Source: Loxodes magnus (Eukaryota; Ciliophora; Karyorelictea; Loxodida; Loxodidae). Taken from it: DNA of 64,000 nt. The stretch covers positions 1-64,000 of the forward strand of contig CAMPDV010002157.1 in the NCBI GenBank assembly GCA_946699065.1. The letters run 5' to 3'. The notes beneath the pieces are model-generated. The model ran no database searches. It saw only the letters and a list, made by a program, of their open reading frames with translations, and had not been told where the DNA came from. Made by a program: the position numbers and the translations under genes. Shown piece after piece: positions 9,716-64,000 of the stretch. How positions within the stretch are numbered: the first letter of the stretch is position 1; each line of letters opens with the position of its first letter.

Positions 9716-10020
9716 GAAAATTACAAATTGAAAATTAAAATTGAAAAATGGAAAAAAAGAAGAAAAAAAAATTATGATGGAAATAAAATAGAAAAAGAAG
9801 AAAAAAAAATGGAGGTTAAGGAGGCAGATTTGTACAGATAAGTGTAACACGCAGTTAAATGAAAAATATTAAGTAAGAAGTTTTGTTAAATATTTTTGAA
9901 AAGAGACTATTAATGTAAAACTTTGTGATGAAGAAATAGTTTTTATAGAGATGTGTAGAAAGGAATGATAATAAAGACATAAATCGAGAATTAAAGAGTG
10001 CTTTTAAAAGCCTGATAGAT

Positions 10021-37200: not shown

Positions 37201-40200
37201 AAAATGGAAAAAAAGATGAAAAAAAAATGTATGATGGAAATAGAAAAAAAAGAAAAAATAGAGGCAGATTTGTTGAGATAAGTGTTATATGCTGTTTAAA
37301 ATATTTTTGGTTTAATGAAAAATATTAAGTAAGAAGTTTTGTTAAATATTTTTGAAAAGAGACTATTAATGTAAAACTTTGTGATGAAATAGTTTTTATA
37401 GAGATGTGTAGAAAGGAATGATAATAAAGACATAAATCGAGAATTAAAGAGTGCTTTTAAAAGCCTGATAGATGTTAAAAAGAAATAAAATTGAAAATTA
37501 CAAATTGAAAATTAAAATTGAAAAATGGAAAAAAAGATGAAAAAAAAATGTATGATGGAAATAAAATAGAAAAAGAAGAAGAAAAAATGGAGGTTAAGGA
37601 GGCAGATTTGTACAGATAAGTGTAACACGCAGTTAAATGAAAAATATTAAGTAAGAAGTTTTGTTAAATATTTTTGAAAAGAGACTATTAATGTAAAACT
37701 TTGTGATGAAATAGTTTTTATAGAGATGTGTAGAAAGGAATGATAATAAAGACATAAATCAAGAATTAAAGAGTGCTTTTAAAAGCCTGATAGATGTTAA
37801 AAAGAAATAAAATTGAAAATTACAAATTGAAAATTAAAATTGAAAAAAAGAAAAAAAAGAAGAAAAAAGAAGAAAAAAGAAGAAAAAAAAATGTATGATG
37901 GAAATAAAATAGAAAAAGAAGAAAAAAAAATAGAGGTTAAGGAGGCAGATTTGTACAGATAAGTGTAATATGCAGTTAAATGAAAAATATTAAGTAAGAA
38001 GTTTTGTTAAATATTTTTGAAAAGAGACTATTAATGTAAAACTTTGTGATGAAATAGTTTTTATAGAGATGTGTAGAAAGGAATGATAATAAAGACATAA
38101 ATCAAGAATTAAAGAGTGCTTTTAAAAGCCTGATAGATGTTAAAAAGAAATAAAATTGAAAATTACAAATTGAAAATTAAAATTGAAAAAAAGAAAAAAA
38201 AGAAGAAAAAAGAAGAAAAAAGAAGAAAAAAAAATGTATGATGGAAATAAAATAGAAAAAGAAGAAGAAAAAATGGAGGTTAAGGAGGCAGATTTGTACA
38301 GATAAGTGTAACACGCAGTTAAATGAAAAATATTAAGTAAGAAGTTTTGTTAAATATTTTTGAAAAGAGACTATTAATGTAAAACTTTGTGATGAAATAG
38401 TTTTTATAGAGATGTGTAGAAAGGAATGATAATAAAGACATAAATCAAGAATTAAAGAGTGCTTTTAAAAGCCTGATAGATGTTAAAAAGAAATAAAATT
38501 GAAAATTACAAATTGAAAATTAAAATTGAAAAATGCAATAAAAGATGAAAAAAAAAATTTATGATGGAAATAAAATAGAAAAAGAAGAAAAAAAGATGGA
38601 GTTAAGGAGTTAGATTTGTACAGATAAGTGTAACACGCAGTTAAATGAAAAATTTTAAGTAAGAAGTTTTGTTAAATATTTTTGAAAAGAGACTATTATT
38701 GTAAAACTTTGTGATGAAGAAATAGTTTTTATAGAGATGTGTAGAAAGGAATGATAATAAAGACATAAATCAAGAATTAAAGAGTGCTTTTAAAAGCCTG
38801 ATAGATGTTAAAAAGAAATAAAATTGAAAATTACAAATTGAAAATTAAAATTGAAAAATGGAAAAAAAGATGAAAAAAAAATGTATGATGGAAATAAAAT
38901 AGAAAAAGAAGAAGAAAAAATGGAGGTTAAGGAGGCAGATTTGTACAGATAAGTGTCATATGCAGTTAAATGAAAAATATTAAGTAAGAAGTTTTGTTAA
39001 ATATTTTTGAAAAGAGACTATTAATGTAATACTTTGTGATGATGAAATAGTTTTTATAGAGATGTGTAGAAATGATAATAAAGACATAAATCGAGAATTA
39101 AAGAGTGCTTTTAAAAGCCTGATAGATGTTAAAAAGAAATAAAATTGAAAATTACAAATTGAAAATTAAAATTGAAAAATGGAAAAAAAGATGAAAAAAA
39201 AATGTATGATGGAAATAAAATAGAAAAAGAAGAAAAAAAAATGGAGGTTAAGGAGGCAGATTTGTACAGATAAGTGTAATATGCAGTTAAATGAAAAATA
39301 TTAAGTAAGAAGTTTTGTTAAATATTTTTGAAAAGAGACTATTAATGTAAAACTTTGTGATGAAATAGTTTTTATAGAGATGTGTAGAAATGATAATAAA
39401 GACATAAATCAAGAATTAAAGAGTGCTTTTAAAAGCCTGATAGATGTTAAAAAGAAATAAAATTGAAAATTACAAATTGAAAATTAAAATTGAAAAATGG
39501 AAAAAAAGATGAAAAAAAAATGTATGATGGAAATAAAATAGAAAAAGAAGAAGAAAAAATGGAGGTTAAGGAGGCAGATTTGTACAGATAAGTGTCATAT
39601 GCAGTTAAATGAAAAATATTAAGTAAGAAGTTTTGTTAAATATTTTTGAAAAGAGACTATTAATGTAAAACTTTGTGATGAAATAGTTTTTATAGAGATG
39701 TGTAGAAAGGAATGATAATAAAGACATAAATCAAGAATTAAAGAGTGCTTTTAAAAGCCTGATAGATGTTAAAAAGAAATAAAATTGAAAATTACAAATT
39801 GAAAATTAAAATTGAAAAAATTGAAAAATGGAAAAAAAAGAAGAAAAAAAAATTTATGATGGAAATAAAATAGAAAAAGAAGAAAAAATAATGGAGGTTA
39901 AGGAGGCAGATTTGTACAGATAAGTGTAACACGCAGTTAAATGAAAAATATTAAGTAAGAAGTTTTGTTAAATATTTTTGAAAAGAGACTATTAATGTAA
40001 AACTTTGTGATGATGAAATAGTTTTTATAGAGATGTGTAGGAATGATAATAAAGACATAAATCGAGAATTAAAGAGTGCTTTTAAAAGCCTGATAGATGT
40101 TAAAAAGAAATAAAATTGAAAATTACAAATTGAAAATTAAAATTGAAAAATGCAAAAAAAGATGAAAAAATAATTTATTATGGAAATAAAATAGAAAAAG

Positions 40201-42732
40201 AAGAAAAAATAATGGAGGTTAAGGAGGCAGATTTGTACAGATAAGTGTAATATGCAGTTAAATGAAAAATATTAAGTAAGAAGTTTCGTTAAATATTCTT
40301 GAAAAGTGACTATTAATGTAAAACTTTTTAATGAAATAGTTTTTATAGAGATGTGTAGAAAGGAATGATAATAAAGACATAAATCGAGAATTAAAGAGTG
40401 CTTTTAAAAGCCTGATAGATGTTAAAAAGAAATAAAATTGAAAATTACAAATTGAAAATTAAAATTGAAAAATGCAAAAAAAGATGAAAAAAAATGTATG
40501 ATGGAAGTAAAATAGAAAAAGAAGAAAAAAAAATGGATGTTAAGGAGGCATATTTGTACAGATAAGTGTAATATGCAGTTAAATGAAAAATATTAAGTAA
40601 AAAATTTTTTTAAATATTTTTGAAAAGAGACTATTAATGTAAAACTTCGTGAAGAAATAGTTTTTATAGAGATGTGTAGAAAGGAATGATAATAAAGACA
40701 TAAATCGAGAATTAAAGAGTGCTTTTAAAAGCCTGATAGATGTTAAAAAGAAATAAAATTGAAAATTACAAATTGAAAATTAAAATTGAAAAATGGAAAA
40801 AAAGATGAAAAAAAAATGTATGATGGAAATAAAATAGAAAAAGAAGAAAAAATAATGGAGGTTAAGGAGGCAGATTTGTACAGATAAGTGTAACACGCAG
40901 TTAAATGAAAAATATTAAGTAAGAAGTTTTGTTAAATATTTTTGAAAAGAGACTATTAATGTAAAACTTTGTGATGAAATAGTTTTTATAGAGATGTGTA
41001 GAAATGATAATAAAGACATAAATCGAGAATTAAAGAGTGCTTTTAAAAGCCTGATAGATGTTAAAAAGAAATAAAATTGAAAATTACAAATTGAAAATTA
41101 AAATTGAAAAATGGAAAAAAAGATGAAAAAAAAATGTATGATGGAAATAAAATAGAAAAAGAAGAAAAAAAAATGGAGGTTAAGGAGGCAGAATTTTACA
41201 GATAAGTGTAATATGCAGTTAAATGAAAAATATTAAGTAAGAAGTTTCGTTAAATATTCTTGAAAAGTGACTATTAATGTAAAACTTTGTGATGATGAAA
41301 TAGTTTTTATAGAGATGTGTAGAAAGGAATGATAATAAAGACATAAATCGAGAATTAAAGAGTGCTTTTAAAAGCCTGATAGATGTTAAAAAGAAATAAA
41401 ATTGAAAATTACAAATTGAAAATTAAAATTGAAAAATGGAAAAAAAGATGAAAAAAAAATGTATGATGGAAATAGAAAAAAAAGAAAAAATAGAGGCAGA
41501 TTTGTTGAGATAAGTGTTATATGCTGTTTAAAATATTTTTGGTTTAATGAAAAATATTAAGTAAGAAGTTTTGTTAAATATTTTTGAAAAGAGACTATTA
41601 ATGTAAAACTTTGTGATGAAATAGTTTTTATAGAGATGTGTAGAAAGGAATGATAATAAAGACATAAATCGAGAATTAAAGAGTGCTTTAAAAGCCTGAT
41701 AGATGTTAAAAAGAAATAAAATTGAAAATTACAAATTGAAAATTAAAATTGAAAAATGGAAAAAAAGATGAAAAAAAAATGTATGATGGAAATAAAATAG
41801 AAAAAGAAGAAGAAAAAATGGAGGTTAAGGAGGCAGATTTGTACAGATAAGTGTAACACGCAGTTAAATGAAAAATATTAAGTAAGAAGTTTTGTTAAAT
41901 ATTTTTGAAAAGAGACTATTAATGTAAAACTTTGTGATGAAATAGTTTTTATAGAGATGTGTAGAAAGGAATGATAATAAAGACATAAATCAAGAATTAA
42001 AGAGTGCTTTTAAAAGCCTGATAGATGTTAAAAAGAAATAAAATTGAAAATTACAAATTGAAAATTAAAATTGAAAAAAAGAAAAAAAAGAAGAAAAAAG
42101 AAGAAAAAAGAAGAAAAAAAAATGTATGATGGAAATAAAATAGAAAAAGAAGAAAAAAAAATAGAGGTTAAGGAGGCAGATTTGTACAGATAAGTGTAAT
42201 ATGCAGTTAAATGAAAAATATTAAGTAAGAAGTTTTGTTAAATATTTTTGAAAAGAGACTATTAATGTAAAACTTTGTGATGAAATAGTTTTTATAGAGA
42301 TGTGTAGAAAGGAATGATAATAAAGACATAAATCAAGAATTAAAGAGTGCTTTTAAAAGCCTGATAGATGTTAAAAAGAAATAAAATTGAAAATTACAAA
42401 TTGAAAATTAAAATTGAAAAAAAGAAAAAAAAAGAAGAAAAAAGAAGAAAAAAGAAGAAAAAAAAATGTATGATGGAAATAAAATAGAAAAAGAAGAAGA
42501 AAAAATGGAGGTTAAGGAGGCAGATTTGTACAGATAAGTGTAACACGCAGTTAAATGAAAAATATTAAGTAAGAAGTTTTGTTAAATATTTTTGAAAAGA
42601 GACTATTAATGTAAAACTTTGTGATGAAATAGTTTTTATAGAGATGTGTAGAAAGGAATGATAATAAAGACATAAATCAAGAATTAAAGAGTGCTTTTAA
42701 AAGCCTGATAGATGTTAAAAAGAAATAAAATT
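34269..42732 (+). repeat. 4,232-bp tandem duplication of 13 monomers
   Basis: Distinctive variants recur at a constant 4,232-bp offset. ATGCAATAAAAG lies at 34301 and 38533; TGCAAAAAAAGATG at 36241 and 40473; CAGAATTTTACAG near 36961 and 41193; a GTTGAGATAAG monomer at 37261 and 41493. Monomer starts give copies 34269-38500 and 38501-42732 with 13 monomers each. The only differences I noticed are single-base changes in A/T runs, such as a missing T near 41690 and an extra A near 42430. Near identity over 4.2 kb of an otherwise variable region implies very recent duplication, or an assembly artefact. Confidence 0.9.
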
Positions 42733-45700
42733 GAAAATTACAAATTGAAAATTAAAATTGAAAAAAAGAAAAAAAAGAAGAAAAAAGAAGAAAAAAGAAG
42801 AAAAAAAAATGTATGATGGAAATAAAATAGAAAAAGAAGAAAAAAAAAATAGAGGTTAAGGAGGCAGATTTGTACAGATAAGTGTAATATGCAGTTAAAT
42901 GAAAAATATTAAGTAAGAAGTTTTGTTAAATATTTTTGAAAAGAGACTATTAATGTAAAACTTTGTGATGAAATAGTTTTTATAGAGATGTGTAGAAAGG
43001 AATGATAATAAAGACATAAATCAAGAATTAAAGAGTGCTTTTAAAAGCCTGATAGATGTTAAAAAGAAATAAAATTGAAAATTACAAATTGAAAATTAAA
43101 ATTGAAAAAAAGAAAAAAAAGAAGAAAAAAGAAGAAAAAAGAAGAAAAAAAAATGTATGATGGAAATAAAATAGAAAAAGAAGAAAAAAAAAATAGAGGT
43201 TAAGGAGGCAGATTTGTACAGATAAGTGTAATATGCAGTTAAATGAAAAATATTAAGTAAGAAGTTTTGTTAAATATTTTTGAAAAGAGACTATTAATGT
43301 AAAACTTTGTGATGAAATAGTTTTTATAGAGATGTGTAGAAAGGAATGATAATAAAGACATAAATCAAGAATTAAAGAGTGCTTTTAAAAGCCTGATAGA
43401 TGTTAAAAAGAAATAAAATTGAAAATTACAAATTGAAAATTAAAATTGAAAAAAAGAAAAAAAAGAAGAAAAAAGAAGAAAAAAAGAAGAAAAAAAAAAT
43501 GTATGATGGAAATAAAATAGAAAAAGAAGAAGAAAAAATGGAGGTTAAGGAGGCAGATTTGTACAGATAAGTGTAACACGCAGTTAAATGAAAAATATTA
43601 AGTAAGAAGTTTTGTTAAATATTTTTGAAAAGAGACTATTAATGTAAAACTTTGTGATGAAATAGTTTTTATAGAGATGTGTAGAAAGGAATGATAATAA
43701 AGACATAAATCAAGAATTAAAGAGTGCTTTTAAAAGCCTGATAGATGTTAAAAAGAAATAAAATTGAAAATTACAAATTGAAAATTAAAATTGAAAAAAA
43801 AGAAAAAAAGAAGAAAAAGAAGAAAAAAGAAGAAAAAAAAAATGTATGATGGAAATAAAATAGAAAAAGAAGAAAAAAAAATAGAGGTTAAGGAGGCAGA
43901 TTTGTACAGATAAGTGTAATATGCAGTTAAATGAAAAATATTAAGTAAGAAGTTTTGTTAAATATTTTTGAAAAGAGACTATTAATGTAAAAACTTTGTG
44001 ATGAAATAGTTTTTATAGAGATGTGTAGAAAGGAATGATAATAAAGACATAAATCAAGAATTAAAGAGTGCTTTTAAAAGCCTGATAGATGTTAAAAAGA
44101 AATAAAATTGAAAATTACAAATTGAAAATTAAAATTGAAAAAAAGAAAAAAAAGAAGAAAAAAGAAGAAAAAAGAAGAAAAAAAAATGTATGATGGAAAT
44201 AAAATAGAAAAAGAAGAAAAAAAAATAGAGGTTAAGGAGGCAGATTTGTACAGATAAGTGTAATATGCAGTTAAATGAAAAATATTAAGTAAGAAGTTTT
44301 GTTAAATATTTTTGAAAAGAGACTATTAATGTAAAACTTTGTGATGAAATAGTTTTTATAGAGATGTGTAGAAAGGAATGATAATAAAGACATAAATCAA
44401 GAATTAAAGAGTGCTTTTAAAAGCCTGATAGATGTTAAAAAAAAATAAAATTGAAAATTACAAATTGAAAATTAAAATTGAAAAAAAGAAAAAAAAGAAG
44501 AAAAAAGAAGAAAAAAGAAGAAAAAAAAATGTATGATGGAAATAAAATAGAAAAAGAAGAAGAAAAAATGGAGGTTAAGGAGGCAGATTTGTACAGATAA
44601 GTGTAACACGCAGTTAAATGAAAAATATTAAGTAAGAAGTTTTGTTAAATATTTTTGAAAAGAGTACTATTAATGTAAAACTTTGTGATGAAATAGTTTT
44701 TATAGAGATGTGTAGAAAGGAATGATAATAAAGACATAAATCAAGAATTAAAGAGTGCTTTTAAAAGCCTGATAGATGTTAAAAAGAAATAAAATTGAAA
44801 ATTACAAATTGAAAATTAAAATTGAAAAAAAGAAAAAAAAGAAGAAAAAAGAAGAAAAAAGAAGAAAAAAAAAATGTATGATGGAAATAAAATAGAAAAA
44901 GAAGAAAAAAAAATAGAGGTTAAGGAGGCAGATTTGTACAGATAAGTGTAATATGCAGTTAAATTGAAAAATATTAAGTAAGAAGTTTTGTTAAATATTT
45001 TTGAAAAGAGACTATTAATGTAAAACTTTGTGATGAAATAGTTTTTATAGAGATGTGTAGAAAGGAATGATAATAAAGACATAAATCAAGAATTAAAGAG
45101 TGCTTTTAAAAGCCTGATAGATGTTAAAAAGAAATAAAATTGAAAATTACAAATTGAAAATTAAAATTGAAAAATGGAAAAAAAGATGAAAAAATAATTT
45201 ATTATGGAAATAAAATAGAAAAAGAAGAAAAAAAAATGGAGGTTAAGGAGGCAGATTTGTACAGATAAGTGTAATATGCAGTTAAATGAAAAATATTAAG
45301 TAAGAAGTTTCGTTAAATATTCTTGAAAAGTGACTATTAATGTAAAACTTTGTGATGATGAAATAGTTTTTATAGAGATGTGTAGAAAGGAATGATAATA
45401 AAGACATAAATCGAGAATTAAAGAGTGCTTTTAAAAGCCTGATAGATGTTAAAAAGAAATAAAATTGAAAATTACAAATTGAAAATTAAAATTGAAAAAA
45501 AGAAAAAAAAGAAGAAAAAAGAAGAAAAAAAAAGAAAAAAAAAATGTATGATGGAAATAAAATAGAAAAAGAAGAAAAAAAAATGGATGTTAAGGAGGCA
45601 TATTTGTACAGATAAGTGTAATATGCAGTTAAATGAAAAATATTAAGTAAAAAATTTTTTTAAATATTTTTGAAAAGAGACTATTAATGTAAAACTTCGT

Positions 45701-48700
45701 GAAGAAATAGTTTTTATAGAGATGTGTAGAAAGGAATGATAATAAAGACATAAATCGAGAATTAAAGAGTGCTTTTAAAAGCCTGATAGATGTTAAAAAG
45801 AAATAAAATTGAAAATTACAAATTGAAAATTAAAATTGAAAAATGGAAAAAAAGATGAAAAAAAAATGTATGATGGAAATAGAAAAAAAAGAAAAAATAG
45901 AGGCAGATTTGTTGAGATAAGTGTTATATGCTGTTTAAAATATTTTTGGTTTAATGAAAAATATTAAGTAAGAAGTTTTGTTAAATATTTTTGAAAAGAG
46001 ACTATTAATGTAAAACTTTGTGATGAAATAGTTTTTATAGAGATGTGTAGAAAGGAATGATAATAAAGACATAAATCGAGAATTAAAGAGTGCTTTTAAA
46101 AGCCTGATAGATGTTAAAAAGAAATAAAATTGAAAATTACAAATTGAAAATTAAAATTGAAAAATGGAAAAAAAGATGAAAAAAAAATGTATGATGGAAA
46201 TAAAATAGAAAAAGAAGAAGAAAAAATGGAGGTTAAGGAGGCAGATTTGTACAGATAAGTGTAACACGCAGTTAAATGAAAAATATTAAGTAAGAAGTTT
46301 TGTTAAATATTTTTGAAAAGAGACTATTAATGTAAAACTTTGTGATGAAATAGTTTTTATAGAGATGTGTAGAAAGGAATGATAATAAAGACATAAATCA
46401 AGAATTAAAGAGTGCTTTTAAAAGCCTGATAGATGTTAAAAAGAAATAAAATTGAAAATTACAAATTGAAAATTAAAATTGAAAAAAAGAAAAAAAAGAA
46501 GAAAAAAGAAGAAAAAAGAAGAAAAAAAAATGTATGATGGAAATAAAATAGAAAAAGAAGAAAAAAAAATAGAGGTTAAGGAGGCAGATTTGTACAGATA
46601 AGTGTAATATGCAGTTAAATGAAAAATATTAAGTAAGAAGTTTTGTTAAATATTTTTGAAAAGAGACTATTAATGTAAAACTTTGTGATGAAATAGTTTT
46701 TATAGAGATGTGTAGAAAGGAATGATAATAAAGACATAAATCAAGAATTAAAGAGTGCTTTTAAAAGCCTGATAGATGTTAAAAAGAAATAAAATTGAAA
46801 ATTACAAATTGAAAATTAAAATTGAAAAAAAGAAAAAAAAGAAGAAAAAAGAAGAAAAAAGAAGAAAAAAAAAATGTATGATGGAAATAAAATAGAAAAA
46901 GAAGAAGAAAAAATGGAGGTTAAGGAGGCAGATTTGTACAGATAAGTGTAACACGCAGTTAAATGAAAAATATTAAGTAAGAAGTTTTGTTAAATATTTT
47001 TGAAAAGAGACTATTAATGTAAAACTTTGTGATGAAATAGTTTTTATAGAGATGTGTAGAAAGGAATGATAATAAAGACATAAATCAAGAATTAAAGAGT
47101 GCTTTTAAAAGCCTGATAGATGTTAAAAAGAAATAAAATTGAAAATTACAAATTGAAAATTAAAATTGAAAAAAAGAAAAAAAAGAAGAAAAAAGAAGAA
47201 AAAAGAAGAAAAAAAAATGTATGATGGAAATAAAATAGAAAAAGAAGAAAAAAAAATAGAGGTTAAGGAGGCAGATTTGTACAGATAAGTGTAATATGCA
47301 GTTAAATGAAAAATATTAAGTAAGAAGTTTTGTTAAATATTTTTGAAAAGAGACTATTAATGTAAAACTTTGTGATGAAATAGTTTTTATAGAGATGTGT
47401 AGAAAGGAATGATAATAAAGACATAAATCAAGAATTAAAGAGTGCTTTTAAAAGCCTGATAGATGTTAAAAAGAAATAAAATTGAAAATTACAAATTGAA
47501 AATTAAAATTGAAAAATGGAAAAAAAGATGAAAAAATAATTTATTATGGAAATAAAATAGAAAAAGAAGAAAAAAAAATGGAGGTTAAGGAGGCAGATTT
47601 GTACAGATAAGTGTAATATGCAGTTAAATGAAAAATATTAAGTAAGAAGTTTCGTTAAATATTCTTGAAAAGTGACTATTAATGTAAAACTTTGTGATGA
47701 TGAAATAGTTTTTATAGAGATGTGTAGAAAGGAATGATAATAAAGACATAAATCGAGAATTAAAGAGTGCTTTTAAAAGCCTGATAGATGTTAAAAAGAA
47801 ATAAAATTGAAAATTACAAATTGAAAATTAAAATTGAAAAAAAGAAAAAAAAGAAGAAAAAAGAAGAAAAAAGAAGAAAAAAAAATGTATGATGGAAATA
47901 AAATAGAAAAAGAAGAAAAAAAAATGGATGTTAAGGAGGCATATTTGTACAGATAAGTGTAATATGCAGTTAAATGAAAAATATTAAGTAAAAAATTTTT
48001 TTTTAAATATTTTTGAAAAGAGACTATTAATGTAAAACTTCGTGAAGAAATAGTTTTTATAGAGATGTGTAGAAAGGAATGATAATAAAGACATAAATCG
48101 AGAATTAAAGAGTGCTTTTAAAAGCCTGATAGATGTTAAAAAGAAATAAAATTGAAAATTACAAATTGAAAATTAAAATTGAAAAATGGAAAAAAAGATG
48201 AAAAAAAAATGTATGATGGAAATAGAAAAAAAAGAAAAAATAGAGGCAGATTTGTTGAGATAAGTGTTATATGCTGTTTAAAATATTTTTGGTTTAATGA
48301 AAAATATTAAGTAAGAAGTTTTGTTAAATATTTTTGAAAAGAGACTATTAATGTAAAACTTTGTGATGAAATAGTTTTTATAGAGATGTGTAGAAAGGAA
48401 TGATAATAAAGACATAAATCGAGAATTAAAGAGTGCTTTTAAAAGCCTGATAGATGTTAAAAAGAAATAAAATTGAAAATTACAAATTGAAAATTAAAAT
48501 TGAAAAATGGAAAAAAAGATGAAAAAAAAATGTATGATGGAAATAAAATAGAAAAAGAAGAAGAAAAAATGGAGGTTAAGGAGGCAGATTTGTACAGATA
48601 AGTGTAACACGCAGTTAAATGAAAAATATTAAGTAAGAAGTTTTGTTAAATATTTTTGAAAAGAGACTATTAATGTAAAACTTTGTGATGAAATAGTTTT

Positions 48701-51700
48701 TATAGAGATGTGTAGAAAGGAATGATAATAAAGACATAAATCAAGAATTAAAGAGTGCTTTTAAAAGCCTGATAGATGTTAAAAAGAAATAAAATTGAAA
48801 ATTACAAATTGAAAATTAAAATTGAAAAAAAGAAAAAAAAGAAGAAAAAAGAAGAAAAAAGAAGAAAAAAAAAAAATGTATGATGGAAATAAAATAGAAA
48901 AAGAAGAAAAAAAAATAGAGGTTAAGGAGGCAGATTTGTACAGATAAGTGTAATATGCAGTTAAATGAAAAATATTAAGTAAGAAGTTTTGTTAAATATT
49001 TTTGAAAAGAGACTATTAATGTAAAACTTTGTGATGAAATAGTTTTTATAGAGATGTGTAGAAAGGAATGATAATAAAGACATAAATCAAGAATTAAAGA
49101 GTGCTTTTAAAAGCCTGATAGATGTTAAAAAGAAATAAAATTGAAAATTACAAATTGAAAATTAAAATTGAAAAAAAGAAAAAAAAGAAGAAAAAAGAAG
49201 AAAAAAGAAGAAAAAAAAATGTATGATGGAAATAAAATAGAAAAAGAAGAAGAAAAAATGGAGGTTAAGGAGGCAGATTTGTACAGATAAGTGTAACACG
49301 CAGTTAAATGAAAAATATTAAGTAAGAAGTTTTGTTAAATATTTTTGAAAAGAGACTATTAATGTAAAACTTTGTGATGAAATAGTTTTTATAGAGATGT
49401 GTAGAAAGGAATGATAATAAAGACATAAATCAAGAATTAAAGAGTGCTTTTAAAAGCCTGATAGATGTTAAAAAGAAATAAAATTGAAAATTACAAATTG
49501 AAAATTAAAATTGAAAAAAAGAAAAAAAAGAAGAAAAAAGAAGAAAAAAGAAGAAAAAAAAATGTATGATGGAAATAAAATAGAAAAAGAAGAAAAAAAA
49601 ATAGAGGTTAAGGAGGCAGATTTGTACAGATAAGTGTAATATGCAGTTAAATGAAAAATATTAAGTAAGAAGTTTTGTTAAATATTTTTGAAAAGAGACT
49701 ATTAATGTAAAACTTTGTGATGAAATAGTTTTTATAGAGATGTGTAGAAAGGAATGATAATAAAGACATAAATCAAGAATTAAAGAGTGCTTTTAAAAGC
49801 CTGATAGATGTTAAAAAGAAATAAAATTGAAAATTACAAATTGAAAATTAAAATTGAAAAATGGAAAAAAAGATGAAAAAATAATTTATTATGGAAATAA
49901 AATAGAAAAAGAAGAAAAAAAAATGGAGGTTAAGGAGGCAGATTTGTACAGATAAGTGTAATATGCAGTTAAATGAAAAATATTAAGTAAGAAGTTTCGT
50001 TAAATATTCTTGAAAAGTGACTATTAATGTAAAACTTTGTGATGATGAAATAGTTTTTATAGAGATGTGTAGAAAGGAATGATAATAAAGACATAAATCG
50101 AGAATTAAAGAGTGCTTTTAAAAGCCTGATAGATGTTAAAAAGAAATAAAATTGAAAATTACAAATTGAAAATTAAAATTGAAAAAAAGAAAAAAAAGAA
50201 GAAAAAAGAAGAAAAAAGAAGAAAAAAAAATGTATGATGGAAATAAAATAGAAAAAGAAGAAAAAAAAATGGATGTTAAGGAGGCATATTTGTACAGATA
50301 AGTGTAATATGCAGTTAAATGAAAAATATTAAGTAAAAAATTTTTTTAAATATTTTTGAAAAGAGACTATTAATGTAAAACTTCGTGAAGAAATAGTTTT
50401 TATAGAGATGTGTAGAAAGGAATGATAATAAAGACATAAATCAAGAATTAAAGAGTGCTTTTAAAAGCCTGATAGATGTTAAAAAGAAATAAAATTGAAA
50501 ATTACAAATTGAAAATTAAAATTGAAAAAAAGAAAAAAAAGAAGAAAAAAGAAGAAAAAAGAAGAAAAAAAAATGTATGATGGAAATAAAATAGAAAAAG
50601 AAGAAAAAAAAATAGAGGTTAAGGAGGCAGATTTGTACAGATAAGTGTAATATGCAGTTAAATGAAAAATTTTAAGTAAGAAGTTTTGTTAAATATTTTT
50701 TGAAAAGAGACTATTAATGTAAAACTTTGTGATGAAATAGTTTTTATAGAGATGTGTAGAAAGGAATGATAATAAAGACATAAATCAAGAATTAAAGAGT
50801 GCTTTTAAAAGCCTGATAGATGTTAAAAAGAAATAAAATTGAAAATTACAAATTGAAAATTAAAATTGAAAAAAAGAAAAAAAAGAAGAAAAAAGAAGAA
50901 AAAAGAAGAAAAAAAAATGTATGATGGAAATAAAATAGAAAAAGAAGAAGAAAAAATGGAGGTTAAGGAGGCAGATTTGTACAGATAAGTGTAACACGCA
51001 GTTAAATGAAAAATATTAAGTAAGAAGTTTTGTTAAATATTTTTGAAAAGAGACTATTAATGTAAAACTTTGTGATGAAATAGTTTTTATAGAGATGTGT
51101 AGAAAGGAATGATAATAAAGACATAAATCAAGAATTAAAGAGTGCTTTTAAAAGCCTGATAGATGTTAAAAAGAAATAAAATTGAAAATTACAAATTGAA
51201 AATTAAAATTGAAAAAAAGAAAAAAAAGAAGAAAAAAGAAGAAAAAAGAAGAAAAAAAAATGTATGATGGAAATAAAATAGAAAAAGAAGAAAAAAAAAT
51301 GGAGGTTAAGGAGGCAGATTTGTACAGATAAGTGTAATATGCAGTTAAATGAAAAATATTAAGTAAGAAGTTTTGTTAAATATTTTTGAAAAGAGACTAT
51401 TAATGTAAAACTTTGTGATGAAATAGTTTTTATAGAGATGTGTAGAAAGGAATGATAATAAAGACATAAATCAAGAATTAAAGAGTGCTTTTAAAAGCCT
51501 GATAGATGTTAAAAAGAAATAAAATTGAAAATTACAAATTGAAAATTAAAATTGAAAAATGGAAAAAAAGATGAAAAAATAATTTATTATGGAAATAAAA
51601 TAGAAAAAGAAGAAAAAAAAATGGAGGTTAAGGAGGCAGATTTGTACAGATAAGTGTAATATGCAGTTAAATGAAAAATATTAAGTAAGAAGTTTCGTTA

Positions 51701-51940
51701 AATATTCTTGAAAAGTGACTATTAATGTAAAACTTTGTGATGATGAAATAGTTTTTATAGAGATGTGTAGAAAGGAATGATAATAAAGACATAAATCGAG
51801 AATTAAAGAGTGCTTTTAAAAGCCTGATAGATGTTAAAAAGAAATAAAATTGAAAATTACAAATTGAAAATTAAAATTGAAAAAAAGAAAAAAAAGAAGA
51901 AAAAAGAAGAAAAAAGAAGAAAAAAAAATGTATGATGGAA
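37840..51940 (+). repeat. Expanded polypurine sub-repeat, (GAAGAAAAAA)n, inside monomers
   Basis: In many monomers of this stretch the A/G tract is lengthened by tandem ~10-bp units of GAAGAAAAAA, usually three in a row, as at 37857, 38197, 42080, 42430, 42777, 43125, 46495 and 49190. Elsewhere in the array the unit is present once or not at all. The run is a pure purine tract of about 50-60 bp on the plus strand, recurring roughly every 330-350 bp. This is a microsatellite inside a satellite and makes these monomers the longest. Confidence 0.85.
45142..49828 (+). repeat. 7-monomer higher-order repeat, about 2.34 kb, two copies plus a partial third
   Basis: A monomer with an AATAATTTATTATGG tract marks the start at 45142 and recurs at 47484, 49829 and 51527. 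The first two intervals are 2,342 and 2,345 bp (7 monomers); the third is 1,698 bp (5 monomers). Each full copy also has one TGGATGTTAAGGAGGCATA monomer and one GTTGAGATAAG monomer (the latter at 45901 and 48244). The third copy lacks the GTTGAGATAAG type, so two monomers were probably lost by unequal exchange. Confidence 0.8.
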
Positions 51941-53157
51941 ATAAAATAGAAAAAGAAGAAAAAAAAATGGATGTTAAGGAGGCATATTTGTACAGATAAG
52001 TGTAATATGCAGTTAAATGAAAAATATTAAGTAAAAAATTTTTTTAAATATTTTTGAAAAGAGACTATTAATGTAAAACTTCGTGAAGAAATAGTTTTTT
52101 ATAGAGATGTGTAGAAAGGAATGATAATAAAGACATAAATCGAGAATTAAAGAGTGCTTTTAAAAGCCTGATAGATGTTAAAAAGAAATAAAATTGAAAA
52201 TTACAAATTGAAAATTAAAATTGAAAAATGGAAAAAAAGATGAAAAAAAAATTTATTATGGAAATAAAATAGAAAAAGAAGAAAAAATAATGGAGGTTAA
52301 GGAGGCAGATTTGTACAGATAAGTGTAATATGCAGTTAAATGAAAAATATTAAGTAAGAAGTTTCGTTAAATATTCTTGAAAAGTGACTATTAATGTAAA
52401 ACTTTTTAATGAAATAGTTTTTATAGAGATGTGTAGAAATGATAATAAAGACATAAATCAAGAATTAAAGGTTGCTTTTAAAAGCCTGATAGATGTTAAA
52501 AAGAAATAAAATTGAAAATTACAAATTGAAAATTAAAATTGAAAAATGGAAAAAAAGATGAAAAAAAAATGTATGATGGAAATAGAAAAGAAGAAATTGA
52601 GGAGGCAGATTTGTTGAGATAAGTGTTATATGCTGTTTAAAATATTTTTTGTTTAATGAAAAATATTAAGTAAGAAGTTTTTTTAAATATTTTTGAAAAG
52701 AGACTATTAATGTAAAACTTCGTGAAGAAATAGTTTTTATATAGATGTGTAGAAAGGAATGATAATAAAGACATAAATCGAGAATTAAAGAGTGCTTTTA
52801 AAAGCCTGATAGATGTTAAAAAGAAATAAAATTGAAAATTACAAATTGAAAATTAAAATTGAAAAATGCAAAAAAAGATGAAAAAAAAATGTATGATGGA
52901 AATAAAAAAGAAGAAAATGGAGGAGGCAGATTTGTTGAGATAAGTGTAATATGCAGTTTAAAATATTTTTGGTTTAATGAAAAATATTAAGTAAGAAGTT
53001 TTGTTAAATATTCTTGAAAAGAGACTATTAATGTAAAACTTTGTGATGAAGAAATAGTTTTTATAGAGATGTGTAGAAAGGAATGATAATAAAGACATAA
53101 ATCGAGAATTAAAGAGTGCTTTTAAAAGCCTGATAGATGTTAAAAAGAAATAAAATT

Positions 53158-54455
53158 GAAAATTACAAATTGAAAATTAAAATTGAAAAATGGAAAAAAA
53201 TGATGAAAAAAAATTTATGATGGAAATAGAAAAAGAAGAAAAAAAAATGGAGGTTAAGGAGGCAGATTTGTACAGATAAGTGTAACACGCAGTTAAATGA
53301 TAGATATTAAGTAAGAAGTTTTGTTAAATATTTTTGAAAAGAGACTATTAATGTAAAACTTTGTGATGAAATAGTTTTTATAGAGATGTGTAGAAATGAT
53401 AATAAAGACATAAATCAAGAATTAAAGAGTGCTTTTAAAAGCCTGATAGATGTTAAAAAGAAATAAAATAGAAAATTACAAATTGAAAATTAAAATTGAA
53501 AAATGGAAAAAAAGATGAAAAAAAAATTTATGATGGAAATAGAAAAAGAAGAAAAAAAAATGGAGGTTAAGGAGGCAGATTTGTACAGATAAGTGTTATA
53601 TGCAGTTTTAAATATTTTTGGTTTAATGAAAAATATTAATTAAGAAGTTTTGTTAAATATTCTTGAAAAGAGACTATTAATGTAAAACTTTGTGATGAAG
53701 AAATAGTTTTTATAGAGATGTGTAGAAAGGAATGATAATAAAGACATAAATCGAGAATTAAAGAGTGCTTTTAAAAGCCTGATAGATGTTAAAAAGAAAT
53801 AAAATTGAAAATTACAAATTGAAAATTAAAATTGAAAAATGGAAAAAAATGATGAAAAAAAATTTATGATGGAAATAGAAAAAGAAGAAAAAAAAATGGA
53901 GGTTAAGGAGGCAGATTTGTACAGATAAGTGTAACACGCAGTTAAATGAAAGATATTAAGTAAGAAGTTTTGTTAAATATTTTTGAAAAGAGACTATTAA
54001 TGTAAAACTTTGTGATGAAATAGTTTTTATAGAGATGTGAAGAAATGATAATAAAGACATAAATCAAGAATTAAAGAGTGCTTTTAAAAGCCTGATAGAT
54101 GTTAAAAAGAAATAAAATAGAAAATTACAAATTGAAAATTAAAATTGAAAAATGGAAAAAAAGATGAAAAAAAAATTTATGATGGAAATAGAAAAAGAAG
54201 AAAAAAAAATGGAGGTTAAGGAGGCAGATTTGTACAGATAAGTGTTATATGCAGTTTAAAATATTTTTGGTTTAATGAAAAATATTAATTAAGAAGTTTT
54301 GTTAAATATTCTTGAAAAGAGACTATTAATGTAAAACTTTGTGATGAAGAAATAGTTTTTATAGAGATGTGTAGAAAGGAATGATAATAAAGACATAAAT
54401 CTAGAATTAAAGAGTGCTTTTAAAAGCCTGATAGATGTTAAAAAGAAATAAAATT
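53158..54455 (+). repeat. 649-bp dimer repeat at the array edge, two copies
   Basis: Monomer pairs 53158-53806 and 53807-54455 match at a 649-bp offset. ATGATGAAAAAAAATTTATG recurs from 53191 to 53840 and the unusual AAATAAAATAGAAAATTAC from 53461 to 54110. The second monomer of each pair carries an extra TTAAATATTTTTGGTTTAATG-like segment. These are the most diverged copies in the window, directly next to single-copy DNA. The last partial monomer starts at 54456 and breaks off by about 54478. Confidence 0.85.
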
Positions 54456-54478
54456 GAAAATTACAAATTGAAAATAAA

Positions 54479-54960
54479 ATGGAGACATTTTGAATATAGA
54501 TATACTTGTTTATAAAGATTTCAAAATAATATTATGATCTAAATTCTTAAATTCAGATAGGTAGAAATAATGAATCGTAATTAGATGTTAAGAACAATTG
54601 ATAAAATGATTTTAACCAAATTATGGTTACAAATGTACATTAAAATTACTAATACTTTGATATGATTTGGTATATATAGCTAACTGATTATAATTGTACT
54701 CAATAGAGTAATAAAATTAAGAAATGAATATAAATCACGTGGCTTGATGAAGATTAAATCAAAAAAGATTATAATCTACTCAGTAAATTATTTAATTTTT
54801 TAGCCTTTAATGGAATATATTATTTTCGAACAAGCTTGGTTATAAAAGAAAAAATCTATGTAATTTCTAAATTATATCCAGCTTTTTATACAAACCTTAA
54901 TGATCCCGATGAAAATTATTATTTTCAATTAAAAATTAAATAAAATTTTCAAGTGAATTA
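54479..54960 (+). CDS. Possible protein-coding stretch next to the satellite, unrecognised
   Basis: I do not recognise this. From ATG 54479 a frame reads through with UAR = Gln and UGA = Trp. Its later part (about 54660-54950) looks most protein-like: codons often begin with G or A, and there are segments such as WLDEDQIKKDYNLLSKLF and YTNLNDPDENYYF. Beyond about 54960 the other frames look equally plausible, so an intron or the gene end may lie there. It contains several in-frame TGA codons besides TGG codons. Because no codon is an unconditional stop under the inferred code, openness alone proves nothing, and no domain supports a function. The start lies only a few bases inside unique DNA and may be accidental. 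Confidence 0.25.
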
Positions 54961-55537: not shown

Positions 55538-56611
55538 TCATTATTAAAAAGATAAAAAAAGCTAAATAATAGAAAAAATAGCACATAATCTTAAAGTATA
55601 AAATATTAAAAAATCTTATAAATTAACTAAAAATAAATTCAGAGTTTTTATGAAAGTTATTTTTTTATTTCCTCTGCCTGTTTTTTTTCCATTTTCCACT
55701 TTTATATCATGAATAAACAATATACTGTTCATATTAAACTAAAACAAATTATTTCTACTTTAAACTGGCTAAGTAAAGTCGTAATTTGTGCCGTTTTGGA
55801 TATATTACTCACCTTAAACATAAACTTTTTTTAGGTCATAAACTTAAGTATCAATTTAGTCATTGTTTCCATATATAATAAAGAATCTTTTTGATAACAT
55901 GAATTTTGATGAAGTTCTTCATTTTTACATCAAAACTTGGTCACATAAATATCACTCATCAAATTAGTAGTTATAATATTAAATGCTATCTATTCTAGAC
56001 GATCTCTCAACATTAGATCCTCCAAATAAAAAAACTTATTTGTCACTTAAGTCGCATCCAAAGAGATAAGAAGATACTTTTATTTATTTAATTTAGCTTA
56101 ATTTCTAAGATTACATATTGAACACTTCGCATTATTATATATCCTAGAATTAGTAATCATTATTAATACCCGAAAAAATGAAATTACATTGCTTTTTATA
56201 CTGAATAGTTCTATGAAAGTATCTTGCAAATTACACTTAAAAATCATTTTAGCTAATCTAGTTATAAATTGTAAATCTCTATTTGTTTATATCAGATCCA
56301 CCTGTTAAAAGTAAGCTTTCTTATTCTATCTACTCTATTTATAAATGGCCACTAAAAGGAATATTTAAATCAACATGTTTAAAATCAAAAATCTCAGTAG
56401 CTACATTATAAGAAAGTTGAGAGTTTTAGTAATTTTAAAAAGTGAAAATTTTTATGTAATAAGCTAATTTAAGATTTGGGCATAATTCATATTTAGTAAC
56501 TCCTATTCCAAATCTTCCAAACAGCCTATTTCTATCAAAGTTTTAAGAGGTTCTAATAATTTTTCTTAAAAACAGTAAATTTAACAAAGAGTTATTACAT
56601 CTCTCTTGCAT
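55538..56611 (-). CDS. Kelch-repeat (beta-propeller) protein with UGA at a conserved tryptophan
   Basis: Read on the minus strand from ATG 56611-56609 with UAR = Gln, this frame gives about 357 residues to a TGA at 55540-55538. The true end may be earlier, since the last ~55 residues are low complexity. Kelch signatures are visible: LLLTGGSD near residue 102, FIFSGINND near 150, VFLFGGSNVE near 195, then YYNYQFDE followed by the expected blade tryptophan at residue 220, and FFIIYGNND near 245. The codon at residue 220 is TGA (55954-55952) and another TGA lies at 55921-55919 (residue 231); both sit inside continuing kelch-like sequence. Kelch propellers are protein-interaction scaffolds, so no enzymatic role is implied. 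The N-terminal ~90 residues are unassigned and the start could lie upstream behind an intron. It is divergent from the coiled-coil gene at 57527. Confidence 0.65.
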
Positions 56612-58604: not shown

Positions 58605-58841
58605 CTCTTCTTTAATTAATTTCAAAGAAGCTGCAAATTCATAGGAAAAGCATAGGCAGGTGCATTAAAATCTTCAAACGAAAGATTTGGAGTAACTACA
58701 AATTAAATAAGTAAACCTAATAATGAATTTATTAAGATAAATACTTAAAAATTGTAGTCAAAAACCGGAAAACAAATTCATACACGTCCCATTAAAACTA
58801 TTAGGAACTTTCTTCAACGTGGATATTAATTGTAGCGTATT

Positions 58842-60785
58842 ATGAAAGTAAAATCAACCTATAAATAGATGAACAGATTAACCGCCTAAAATAATACCGC
58901 GAAATATACAAAACGATTACCTAAGAAATCTTTCCAAAAATAAGATATTATCTTAGATAGTTAGAATTCTAAAGATATACCTTCAAATCCTAATTAAAAT
59001 TCAAATAAAGATATCCTTTTATGGTAATCAAAAATAACATAAACTTAAGATTAATTTTTGAATAATACTAATTAACAATTCTATTACATTTCAAATAACT
59101 AAATTAGTCAGAAATAAAATAATATTACTAATCCTGATAATTCAAATAATCATTATTTACCTGATCTACAGAGCAAACAACCTTAAAATTAAACTGCTGA
59201 TTTAAGAAATATAATATAAAATCAAATAATTAATTAGTCTAACGAGAATTTATTTACTTTAGAAATAAAAGAACTTAAACATAATATATAAAGACTTATA
59301 GATAAGAACCAATAATTAAATGAAATGCTAATTAATATAAAAGTAAAATATGAACGAGATATTGAAACATTGATAAGTAACTAAGAAGTATCCAAAGCAT
59401 ATTATAAAACTTATATAAATAAAATTTATTAGAAATATAAACAATTATAGAACTATTTTTAATCAATCAAATCTGATATATAGCAATATCACAAAAAAAT
59501 GCTATCAAAATAACTAGTTCATAAAATTACTTAAGCAAACTTCTCCACTTATTAAAGTAACTAAATAGTTTAAACAGATGAAATAATTAGTATATTTCAA
59601 GAAATTTAGATATAATAGAAAAACTATGAGAATTAAGTCAATTAAATAGATGAAATATAATCTAATTAAGAGATTCAAATTGAAGCCAATGCTAATTTAA
59701 GCTTTACTTAAGCTTAAATAATAGAAGCAAATAATTCACTATGGCAAAACTTTAATAAAATTAGAAATTTTACTTAAATTGAAATAGATAACTTTCTAAA
59801 TAAAACTTAGCAAGGATATCAATAGACTATATTAGAATAGAACTAATATTTACTTCAACAAATTACCTAATAAAAAATAATAACCGAAATTTAACTCCAA
59901 GAGTTATATTCTTAATATTAAAAATTATAAAACTAAAATAAGTAATTTATAGATTAAGAATAGAAAGCTTAAATGGAAATTTTAACTTTTAAAATCTAAT
60001 TAGATAAGTAAAGATAATAAAACTATGAAATAAATATAGCTTTTCAAAATTAAATTCTATTAAAAAATAAGGAAATTCAAATGTATAAAGAATTATTTTA
60101 GAATTAAATCTAACATACAAAAGAATTTAGTAATTAATAGTAATTTTAGAAGAAGTAATTTGTAGATGCATAAACTTAGACATTATATGGAAATATTTAA
60201 ACAAAGGATAGTATTATCTAAACAGATAATATAAATAAATAATAAACAGCTTTTTTGTGTCAAAAATTTACTCAAACAAATATAATCAAGCAAGACAAGT
60301 TAATGTAAACTTAAAATAATTAATAGGAAGCATAAACTAATACTATTATAACATAACATAATAACTAATACTGTCAAATAAAATTGCCAGATGAAGATTT
60401 TGTTTTACTATAGCATTAATATCACTAACTCAATTTAAAATTCATTTAAAGTACCCAAAATATATAGACACTTGAGATAAAAATAGAAGAGTTTTAAAAA
60501 CTTAATTAAAATTTGAAAACAGATATATTTAATTATTCTACTAAAAGATGAAAAAAAGATTAATAAAACTAAACAAATTCGATTGATGCTATTTATCAGA
60601 ATTAAACCTTATCTTCCAATATTAATCTTAATATTCTTAAAAGGAAACATGAAGAAGAAGATAAAACAATTCCGCCAGCAAAACGTATGAGTAAACATAA
60701 TAATAAAAAAGAGTGCGATTAAATAATATGTTATTTCAATCTGACTAGTCTATAACTTTAAAAGTTTATTAAATCCGAAACTTGA
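58842..60785 (+). CDS. LINE ORF1-like protein: Q/N-rich coiled coil with QT-motif cluster
   Basis: ATG 58842 to TGA 60783-60785 is 648 codons in a single frame with UAR = Gln. Protein-like sequence extends upstream to 58605 (AQAGALKSSNERFGVTTNQ), so the true start may be earlier or spliced. The N-terminus is basic (RLTAQNNTAKYTKRLPKKSF). Residues about 130-430 are heptad-like coiled coil. Residues about 442-510 hold closely spaced QT motifs (AQTQT, IQTDN, TQTNI, MQTQN, QTNT), plus VQTDE near 245, resembling dynein light chain LC8 binding sites. Residues about 599-617 (KRKHEEEDKTIPPAKRM) look like a bipartite nuclear localisation signal. One TGA (60549) and two TGG codons occur. No zinc knuckle or RRM is visible. 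Assignment as ORF1 rests on position upstream of ORF2 and general composition; it could be an independent host gene. Confidence 0.55.
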
Positions 60786-61090
60786 AGACGTCCATAGTAC
60801 GAAATGTACAATATATAAGGTAGATATGTCACAGTTACTTAAGATTTAGAATAAGGTACATGTGATAGTGTGAAAAGTAAAATTGATATAGATAGAAAGC
60901 TACTTAAAAATATACGACGTAAGTAATATATATTTTGATACAATATTTTCATTAACATCCCGAGTATGGAAAAAGATTAGTACATATTTAGATTAACCAA
61001 TAAGGATAGAAAAGCATTTGCGTTTACGAAAGTGGTCTATCTGCAGGCTCGGAAAAAATTAGAAAGGACTAATAAATTTAAAAAATAAAG
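60786..61090. other. Spacer between ORF1 and ORF2
   Basis: About 300 bp. The ORF2 frame stays protein-like upstream of 61091 to roughly 60960 (RLVHIQINQQGQKSICVYES), but without an in-frame ATG. The real ORF2 start may therefore use an upstream start through splicing, reinitiation or a non-ATG codon. TGA codons lie in this frame near 60863 and 60884. Confidence 0.45.
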
Positions 61091-64000
61091 ATGGGACATA
61101 TAAATATTAATGGAATAGCGAGCAAGTGTTTGAATATTGAAGAATTTATCAGAGATAACAGTATAGATATTTTATCAATAAACGAAACCTGATAAAAAGA
61201 TGACTTTCCTCCAATATTGATAAATGGATTTAAAACATATTTTAAGAACTCAGGAAAAGGAGGAGGTGTATGCTTAATTGTAGGAGAAGAATTTAATAGT
61301 ACAGAAATACATATATAAGTTGAAAAAGAAATAAATAGATTCATAACAATTAAACTGGATAATATTTTAATCACGTCTTGTTACATGCCTGATAGTGGAA
61401 AAAGTTAAGATGTTAAATATTTAGCTTATGAACAACTAAATACATTGCTGAATTTATATAATGATAATCCACATATACTAATGGGAGATTTTAATGCTCT
61501 TTTATAAGTTTTCGGTGATAATCCTGAAAATGCTTATGATAATAACATTAGACTATAAGAATTCTTACTATAAAACGATCTTGAGATAGTGAATGATAGC
61601 AACATTAATACATGTATTCACAAAGGAACAGGAAAAACGTATTGTAATGATTATATCATTATAAACAACCATTTGAACGTTAATTAGTTTGCAAACTTCA
61701 CTGCTCATAATAATAGTTTATTTTCTGATCATATTCCAATCACTGTCGACTTTATCAATAATTCTATAGTATATTGGGAAAAGATAACTCAGAGAAAATA
61801 TAAAATAAATAGGTTATAAGATGCAATAGATAGGCAAAAATATTAAGAATCTTTCCTACAAACTTATCTAGAATTCTTTTAAATAGATTAAGATAATCTT
61901 GAAGATTAATATGAATGCATCAAAAGTAATATTTAAGACAATGCTGATCAAACATTAGGTTCGTTTATTCCAGACTCAAATTATAACAAACTTCCTCGAG
62001 CTCTCACAAAGAAATATATAGAGGCAAAAAGAACTAACTCAGAATATAAAAAAGCTCATGTAAAATTTGGAAGAATAAACTAGCAAGTAACTAATCTTCA
62101 TGAGGAAGCAAAATGACTTTGGAAAGACTTCAAGTATAATCTATGAAAATTTAAAAAGAACAAAGCAAAAAAGAAATTTCTACTTCTTAATGGAGATTCT
62201 AAGGAATTTTTTTCACAAGCTAAGAAAATTCTAAATCCTTTGAAGAGAAATACTATGAACTTTAATTAAGAAATCAAAAATAAATTCATTGAATCATGGG
62301 AAAATTGTGTTTTTAGCAAGCATTCTAATCTAACTCAAGAATAGATAAATCTTAGTAATTAAAAAATAGATAAAATATACGATAATATTTAAGAAATTAA
62401 AGATTATCCACTCTCGTATTTGTAAGGATTTTATCTTTTTACCATAAAAGAAATATAAGAAATTATAAAAGAAATTCCGAATGGAAAAGCAGCTGGTTCA
62501 GATGGAATAAAAGGCGAACTTCTGAAATATGGTGGATAATATTTATTAATAATTCTTCATTCTTTTCTGAATAATATGCTAAGACTTGGAAGAATCCCTT
62601 AGGAATTAAATATATCGGTGATAATTCCAATATTTAAAAAAGGAAATAAAGATGATTGGAAAAACTGACTACCTATTTCTCTTATTAATACTATTCTAAA
62701 ACTATATGATAAAGCTTTAACAAAAAGACTATACAATCTGATTTATTAGAGAAATTTGATTCATCCTTCATAAATGGGATTTATGAAAAACAGATGAACA
62801 ACTTAATAAATTTGAATAATATAGCAAATAATTGATAACTATCGGAAATGTGCTAAAGGTAAGACTAAATTAATAGCAACACTGATAGACGTTGAAAAAA
62901 TGTTTGACTCAATAGAAAGAAGACTCTTGTTTGATTAACTTAAGAGAGTTAAACTACCACTTGGAATAATAATAGCATTAGAATCGTTTTATAAAAACCT
63001 AAATTCTTCATTTATCATAGATGGTAAGAGCACCAGAACTTTATAATTCAACAATGGAGTTATGTAAGGAAATTCTCATGGACCAGTTTTAGCATTATTG
63101 TATTATGACATAGTAATTAGATATCTGGAAAGTAAAAGTAACTAATTTGGATTTAAATGCCAGGATTCAAGTATTAGCTTCGCTTGTAGAGGATGGGCAG
63201 ATGATCTTATTCTTCTTTCCAAATCTGCAAAGTAGATGTAGAATTTAATAAATGAAGCAAATAAAGTTTTAGCATGAACACATTTAAAGATTAATGTTAC
63301 CAAATTCGAATGCATCTAATTTCTAAAGAAGAATCAAAAATAATAAATTTTAAATTTATAATTAGGAAATTAACCAATTGCTTAAAAAGAACAAGTAACA
63401 TATTTAGGAGTTATTCTACATTAGAAGAAGAACTTAAATCCCCATTGCAAAGAAGCTGCATTCAAATATATAGCTGCAATGAAGAAACCTGCTTTTTAAC
63501 TGATGAGATATAAGAATGTAACTCCTTGACATTTTAAAACTTTATGTAGACATTTTACATTACCTAAAGCAGAATATGGAGGAGACTTAGTATCATGAAG
63601 TATTCAAAAAGGAGTAACTGGAGTTCTGAATAGAATAGAATCAAGCATGAGATTAATTTCAAGAAAAGCTTTTTAAGTAGCAACTTCAACATTTAATAAA
63701 TCATGTTATATAGACCTGAATTGATTACCCTTTAAGCACATTATGGCTATAAAATTTTTCAGATTCTACCATAAAATTAAATAAGAAAGTACTGATTTTC
63801 CAAGATCAACAATAGGCTCTCTTTTCATTAATATATGGAAAAAGATTTCAATACTACGATTAAGTGTAGCAATTATCAGACCTTTATAATATCGATCTGC
63901 AGAATTAATAGAATAATACCAATCTTAAAACTTTTACTAAACATGTAAGAGAAAAAATACAACAATATTTCTACAAAGTAGCTACTAAAAAATTTATGAG
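61091..64000 (+). CDS. LINE ORF2: APE endonuclease and reverse transcriptase, C-terminus outside window
   Basis: One frame runs 970 codons from ATG 61091 to the window end with UAR = Gln and UGA = Trp. Endonuclease motifs in order: NING (codons 5-8), SINET-W with catalytic Glu at codon 32, Tyr 98 (YMPD), MGDFNA (Asp 133, Asn 135), NDYII, and SDH at codons 212-214. Reverse-transcriptase motifs: GKAAGSDGI, then KN-W-LPISLINTILKLYDKAL, motif A DVEKMFD (Asp 600 and 606), motif B GVMQGNSHGPVLALL, motif C GWADD (Asp 704 and 705), motif D LKINVTKFEC, and YLGVIL. The usual Tyr or Phe of YADD is Trp here. Ten TGA codons (61190, 62114, 62144, 62666, 62795, 62813, 63275, 63527, 63596, 63722) and six TGG codons occur. 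Several TGAs sit where LINEs have Trp (NETW, NW-PIS). The domain begins almost at the ATG, so the start may be upstream. Confidence 0.88.

Follow-up and report, generated by a model that had tools for sequence, protein, structure and literature searches.

Probable use of UGA for tryptophan, with UAA and UAG for glutamine, in a retrotransposon and a nearby kelch-repeat gene

The current analysis concerns a 64-kb stretch of very AT-rich, ciliate-like DNA (hereafter the window), in which a long interspersed nuclear element (LINE) with two putative open reading frames (ORFs) lies near a kelch-repeat ORF, and it addresses the codons TGA, TAA and TAG that interrupt these frames. The evidence supports UAA and UAG as glutamine codons, while UGA as a tryptophan codon is favoured in two unrelated genes, ORF2 of the LINE and the kelch ORF, which makes this assignment supported, though not proven. 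Taken together, we consider it quite probable that this threefold reassignment is the correct reading of the window. The host would then be a ciliate-like protist in whose nuclear code UAA and UAG stand for glutamine and UGA, within genes at any rate, for tryptophan, and both the LINE (ORF1 and ORF2) and the nearby kelch-repeat gene would be written in this altered code of their host; the corresponding transfer RNA (tRNA), a context-dependent termination of translation and the host group are what we infer from it. Coordinates are collected in Table 1.

Results

ORF2 is a single frame of 970 codons that contains ten TGA, 39 TAA, 9 TAG, 6 TGG, 13 CAA and 2 CAG codons, just as the first-pass annotation of this DNA had reported for the ten TGA. 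Its matches to Pfam RVT_1 (E 3.7e-26), Exo_endo_phos_2 (E 4.6e-11) and Exo_endo_phos (E 1.5e-8) all exceed the curated cut-offs, and the presence of an apurinic/apyrimidinic (AP)-like endonuclease and a reverse transcriptase (RT) within one ORF identifies the element as an AP endonuclease (APE)-type LINE. When all TGA, TAA and TAG codons were masked as X, ORF2 matched a profile of 28 LINE proteins at 345 bits (E 2.8e-107) in one domain covering residues 1-908. No frameshift was found within these residues, as had been claimed before; residues 909-970 lie outside the alignment. Of the 50 profile columns with the highest information content, counted with TGA read as tryptophan and TAA/TAG as glutamine, ORF2 carries the consensus residue in 36 and a positively scoring one in 40, and all six glycine columns of this set are kept. 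The earlier statement that every catalytic residue is intact holds for those that we take to be catalytic (N5, Y98, D133, N135, D187 and H214 of the endonuclease; D600, D704 and D705 of the RT), but it cannot be extended to every conserved residue, since 10 of the 50 columns are lost, including Arg>Leu, Ala>Met and Phe>Ala changes within RT motifs. These ten columns mark the element as either divergent or slightly degraded. Two local peculiarities are found at 62669-62671, where the N-Y/W-R-P-I motif has Leu instead of its conserved Arg, and at 63194-63196, where the usual Tyr/Phe-Ala-Asp-Asp reads Trp-Ala-Asp-Asp.

The same profile can be used to ask which amino acid its columns prefer at each codon. 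For TAA (n=32), glutamine is the top letter by a margin of 11.4 bits, and for TAG (n=9) it is again the top letter, by 1.8 bits; the control codons CAA and CAG likewise yield glutamine, with a margin of 1.0 bit. The glutamine-compatible placement of UAA and UAG proposed previously is supported, and it corresponds to what is defined for both codons in NCBI code 27.

The strongest new evidence for UGA as tryptophan comes from comparing the sequence of the kelch ORF with known kelch repeats. No kinship of this ORF to the LINE was seen. Translation with TGA as tryptophan yields matches to PF24681 with 29.6 bits and E 5.4e-7, to PF24981 with 20.9 bits and to Kelch_1 with 20.0 bits; the respective curated cut-offs are 50, 50 and 20.1. 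If the ORF is ended at its first TGA, the PF24681 score falls to 20.3 bits, and the portion beyond that TGA has no match by itself at E up to 10. At this codon (55954-55952), tryptophan is the best of all 20 letters, exceeding the next one, Arg, by 3.4 bits on PF24681 (26.2 bits for Arg), while on Kelch_1 the 19 other letters reach at most 14.7 bits (Phe), a margin of 5.3 bits. Comparison with the PDB points in the same direction. Kelch proteins account for 12 of the 13 matches found there at E up to 1, one of them being so counted by its designed-protein name (which two entries bear), and the best of these matches has E 7.3e-6. The TGA faces Trp in eight of the eight repeat alignments listed, which involve three PDB chains and in some cases extend into the next repeat; the query carried W at this position, which aids such a match, and single repeats score weakly.

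Within ORF2, the assignment of UGA can be approached in several ways. Three of the ten TGA lie at columns where tryptophan is the first letter of the profile, and none of the five TGG codons do. Profile columns that give Trp at least 3 bits number 23 of 878, and the placement of three of ten TGA on them corresponds to P = 0.0017; by the measure of columns with Trp as first letter (50 of 878), the enrichment has P = 0.016. Both sites that the first-pass annotation had named as near-invariant LINE tryptophans, 61190 and 62666, are among these three. Of the three further sites that it considered to be often tryptophan, 63722 proved to be one, whereas 63275 and 63596 do not have Trp as their top letter. 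Facing the TGA at 62666, W is found in 9 of 15 aligned LINE loci and, among the PDB chains listed, in three of five, the other two having Y. Substituting each of the 20 letters for TGA in Pfam comparisons also favours tryptophan, which gives the best sum for RVT_1 and Exo_endo_phos (127.7 bits), followed by Arg (125.6 bits).

The profile itself was built from relatives of ORF2 that were encountered in bacterial genome records. When bacterial genome contigs were scanned with an RT alignment, 16 loci (L001-L016) in nine assemblies were obtained. Further loci were recovered from eight of these nine assemblies with the ORF2 protein, and from four of the seven searched with PF14529. In the 16 loci, the residues facing TGA were most often Arg (13), Phe (10) and Trp (9), with all nine Trp at one site; it was due to the weakness of this tally that a profile was made from more loci, whereby 67 loci gave 76 ORFs of at least 250 amino acids, 49 of which matched masked ORF2 at E 1e-6 and 28 of which remained after removal of near-duplicates. 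Scored against their own profile, these 28 members reach 446-1126 bits, which places ORF2 with its 345 bits at a greater distance than any of them. The LINE ORFs of L001-L016 sit in records titled as bacterial symbionts or metagenome-assembled genomes, such as symbionts of Bathymodiolus and Alviniconcha, which suggests eukaryotic contamination of those assemblies. One additional locus (L024, G008:C46:1166-1708), from an assembly titled Holosporales that also contains L015, is a LINE RT fragment with two TGA and one TAG in the matched frame, and it may be decayed or differently coded. No relatives of ORF2 were found in viral contigs, with either the single protein or an RT alignment as query, or in phage records (tblastn, E 1e-3).

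The frame at 58605-61133 is probably ORF1 of the LINE. From 58605 to 60548 it has no TGA in 648 codons, whereas the five other frames of the same stretch have 5, 16, 11, 18 and 6. Downstream of 60548, TGA codons occur at 60549, 60783, 60936 and 61131, the last of these being a possible end, and TGG is found at 59022, 59742 and 61092. No Pfam family matched ORF1. A plus-strand frame at 57482-58315 contains several TGA, appears coiled-coil-like and has a Cys/His-rich motif with a weak PHD-like Pfam match (E 0.04); it could represent one more ORF that uses UGA for tryptophan, but a different frame looks equally plausible, and it was not used as evidence.

When ORF2, ORF1 (58605-61088) and the kelch ORF are considered together, UGA is the commoner tryptophan codon, with 15 TGA and 8 TGG, in a tally that leaves out the last TGA of the kelch frame (55540-55538). 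The A-ending share of the TGA/TGG pair in ORF2 is 62%, compared with 83% for the other purine-ending pairs (P = 0.04).

Most of the window consists of the satellite listed in Table 1. An anchor word of its 324-bp unit occurs in 165 copies, whose 12 commonest spacings are all 318-344, and GC skew of about 0.65 and AT skew of about 0.3 persist across more than 50 kb, with units alike along the array. A pattern search of viral contigs found no relatives of the satellite. Downstream of it, some 3 kb of AT-rich DNA contain the minus-strand kelch gene and are followed by an uncertainly coding stretch and finally the LINE. ARAGORN found no tRNA genes in the 64-kb window, and there was no match to RNA families, 18S included, in 54001-64000 at E up to 1, the remainder of the window being satellite.

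Table 1. Features discussed in the text and their coordinates in the window
Feature	Position	Strand	Basis and remarks
Kelch-repeat ORF	~56290-55820	-	Pfam and PDB matches; reads through two TGA; no TGG in frame
TGA at kelch Trp; repeat goes on past it	55952..55954	-	PDB repeat alignments; Kelch_1 letter scan
Second in-frame TGA of kelch ORF	55919..55921	-	No Trp preference; no W opposite in the listed alignments that reach it
ORF2 of APE-type non-long-terminal-repeat (non-LTR) retrotransposon (LINE), AP-like endonuclease and RT	61091..64000	+	Exits the window at 64000
TGA, ORF2 residue 34 (INET-W)	61190..61192	+	Profile column: W 3.4 bits, rank 1
TGA, ORF2 residue 526 (N-W-xPIS)	62666..62668	+	Profile column: W 4.3 bits, rank 1
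TGA, ORF2 residue 878	63722..63724	+	Profile column: W 3.2 bits, rank 1
Seven other TGA of ORF2: 62114, 62144, 62795, 62813, 63275, 63527, 63596	62114..63598	+	Profile columns: W rank 13-20; the TGA at 62666 also falls in this span
Probable ORF1 of LINE	58605..61133	+	Frame scan; Gln-rich, coiled-coil-like by eye; start not fixed
Satellite array, 324-bp unit, ~167 copies	1..54480	.	Tandem Repeats Finder; strong strand asymmetry; context only

Discussion

Several observations weigh against UGA as tryptophan and have to be set beside those that favour it. Seven of the ten TGA in ORF2 occupy columns that are not tryptophan-like, and RVT_1 considered alone gives a tie of Trp and Arg at 92.6 bits each, in a 20-letter scan run for TGA only. 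Summed over all ten TGA, the LINE profile favours Arg (6.1 bits), followed by His (4.7), Phe (1.3) and Tyr (1.1), with Trp only fifth at -0.5, and in the well-aligned columns (n=8) Trp is fourth with 3.3 bits, after Arg (4.3), Phe (3.8) and His (3.5). The control codon TGG (n=5) also fails by this measure, with Tyr first at 3.3 bits and Trp at -5.2, and the correct letter is assigned to just 28 of 57 sense codons, so the summed profile has little power for rare residues. None of the Pfam matches of the kelch ORF reaches its curated cut-off. Furthermore, UGA makes up 10 of 970 codons in ORF2, far above its published share of 0.042% in Condylostoma, 0.120% in Parduczia and 0.059% in Blepharisma (PMC4967479); the rarity of UGA that is described for codes 27 and 28, of which it is not a defining property, is thus not seen here. 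A mobile element need not match the codon usage of its host. Coding GC content is also lower here, at 26.4% in ORF2 and 24.6% in the kelch core, than the 33.5% of Loxodes magnus coding sequences (PMC11441545). With regard to the property that does define code 27, tryptophan for UGA inside genes, it is the best fit to Pfam in both the LINE and the kelch ORF, although the margin in the LINE is small and its summed profile favours Arg; the original proposal of UGA as tryptophan stands to this extent.

Much of the remaining doubt concerns decay. The LINE and the kelch ORF could be decayed pseudogene copies in a ciliate that terminates translation solely at UGA (NCBI code 6), residing in satellite-rich, germline-limited DNA such as that of a Tetrahymena or Paramecium germline. 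This would suit the long satellite array that adjoins both genes, the ten conserved LINE columns that are lost and the seven TGA sites that are not tryptophan-like. LINEs are present in the germline genomes of code-6 ciliates. The low GC content and the glutamine codon use also presumably resemble those of Tetrahymena. To gauge what decay would leave behind, it was simulated under six settings of 60 runs each, which were assumed rather than measured in a host and in which 80% of indels were taken to be frame-shifting. A mean of 1.7-2.9 of ten TGA then fall on former TGG codons, and consequently the three tryptophan-like sites do not separate code from decay. After 300 substitutions, moreover, 40 kept columns of 50 would be unsurprising (P 0.40), with a mean profile score of 211. 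However, a median of 586-686 substitutions are needed for neutral decay to generate ten TGA in ORF2, and the chance of finding no frameshift is then 7e-4 to 3e-3 at 0.02 indels per substitution and 4e-7 to 2e-5 at 0.05. At 600 substitutions, the probability of 40 kept columns drops to 0.004, and the mean profile score is then 97, compared with the 345 bits observed. Some unusual residues of ORF2 (F>A, T>F) can be reached only by substituting two or three bases, which we read as a sign of long divergence, and the kelch ORF is a second gene with TGA at a conserved tryptophan. The argument rests on the absence of frameshifts together with the kelch gene, and with them decay becomes an unlikely account. 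The earlier contention that random decay does not predict an unshifted frame is supported by these simulations.

Other explanations fare worse. If UGA were read as a different amino acid, such as Arg or Cys, the equality of Arg and Trp on RVT_1 and the lead of Arg in the summed LINE profile would be accounted for, but tryptophan exceeds Arg and Cys by 3.4-6.4 bits in the kelch gene and is on top in the summed Pfam score of the LINE, the total for Cys in the LINE profile is -13.7 bits, and we know of no nuclear code with UGA as Arg; we regard this as very improbable. Hardly credible to us is the possibility that UGA is a stop codon in the DNA and that A-to-I editing turns UGA into UGG in transcripts before translation. 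Such editing would yield an identical pattern in the DNA, and removal of stop codons by this route occurs in some fungi, whereas we are aware of none in ciliates. Hypermutation confined to GG was considered too and fits poorly, as ORF2 retains 41 GGN codons, 59 GG and six of six informative Gly columns.

When UGA as tryptophan with UAA and UAG as glutamine is compared with known systems, it is evident that the code type as such has been described, and that it is rare. UAA/UAG as glutamine together with UGA as tryptophan is reported for Condylostoma and Parduczia (PMC4967479), for Loxodes (PMC11441545) and, as probable, for Amoebophrya (PMC12005148), while the accessible part of an earlier survey (PMC6935857) gives karyorelicts a UGA stop and UAR as glutamine, with no mention there of sense UGA. 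The karyorelict nuclear code (NCBI table 27; Loxodes) shares all three assignments with the window, UGA being read as tryptophan inside genes, and the tandem-repeat- and LINE-rich genome of Loxodes magnus (PMC11441545) suits the window too; the much rarer UGA of Parduczia and the higher GC content of L. magnus coding sequences do not. In Condylostoma, the same three assignments apply and all 64 codons are read, with its sparse use of UGA as the difference. Its code is NCBI table 28, in which UAA and UAG act additionally as stops close to mRNA ends; under table 27 that role falls to UGA alone. Amoebophrya sp. ex Karlodinium veneficum, which has a tRNA-Trp with a 4-bp stem, probably agrees in all three codons as well, but is a dinoflagellate. 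Among ciliate non-LTR elements, those of Paramecium (groups 1-5) and Tetrahymena likewise combine APE and RT in ORF2, and groups 1-3 have an upstream ORF1. UGA is a stop codon in their hosts, and the ORF1 of groups 1-3 carries a terminal zinc finger; the present ORF1 matched no Pfam family.

The published usage differs from that of the window, in which UGA is the commoner tryptophan codon (15 of 23). It is conceivable, though somewhat unlikely, that the host is a very AT-rich ciliate that is neither Loxodes nor Condylostoma, with UGA as its commoner tryptophan codon, UAA and UAG as its commoner glutamine codons and termination determined wholly by context. With all three stop triplets serving as everyday sense codons, termination would have nothing but context to rest upon.

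Genomes in which all three stop triplets are known to be read as amino acids are few, and they show how context can decide where translation ends. If UGA is indeed the usual tryptophan codon in a mobile element as well as in a nearby gene, it would become more pressing to ask how ribosomes stop in such an organism, and this would also show that a retrotransposon follows the altered code of its host.
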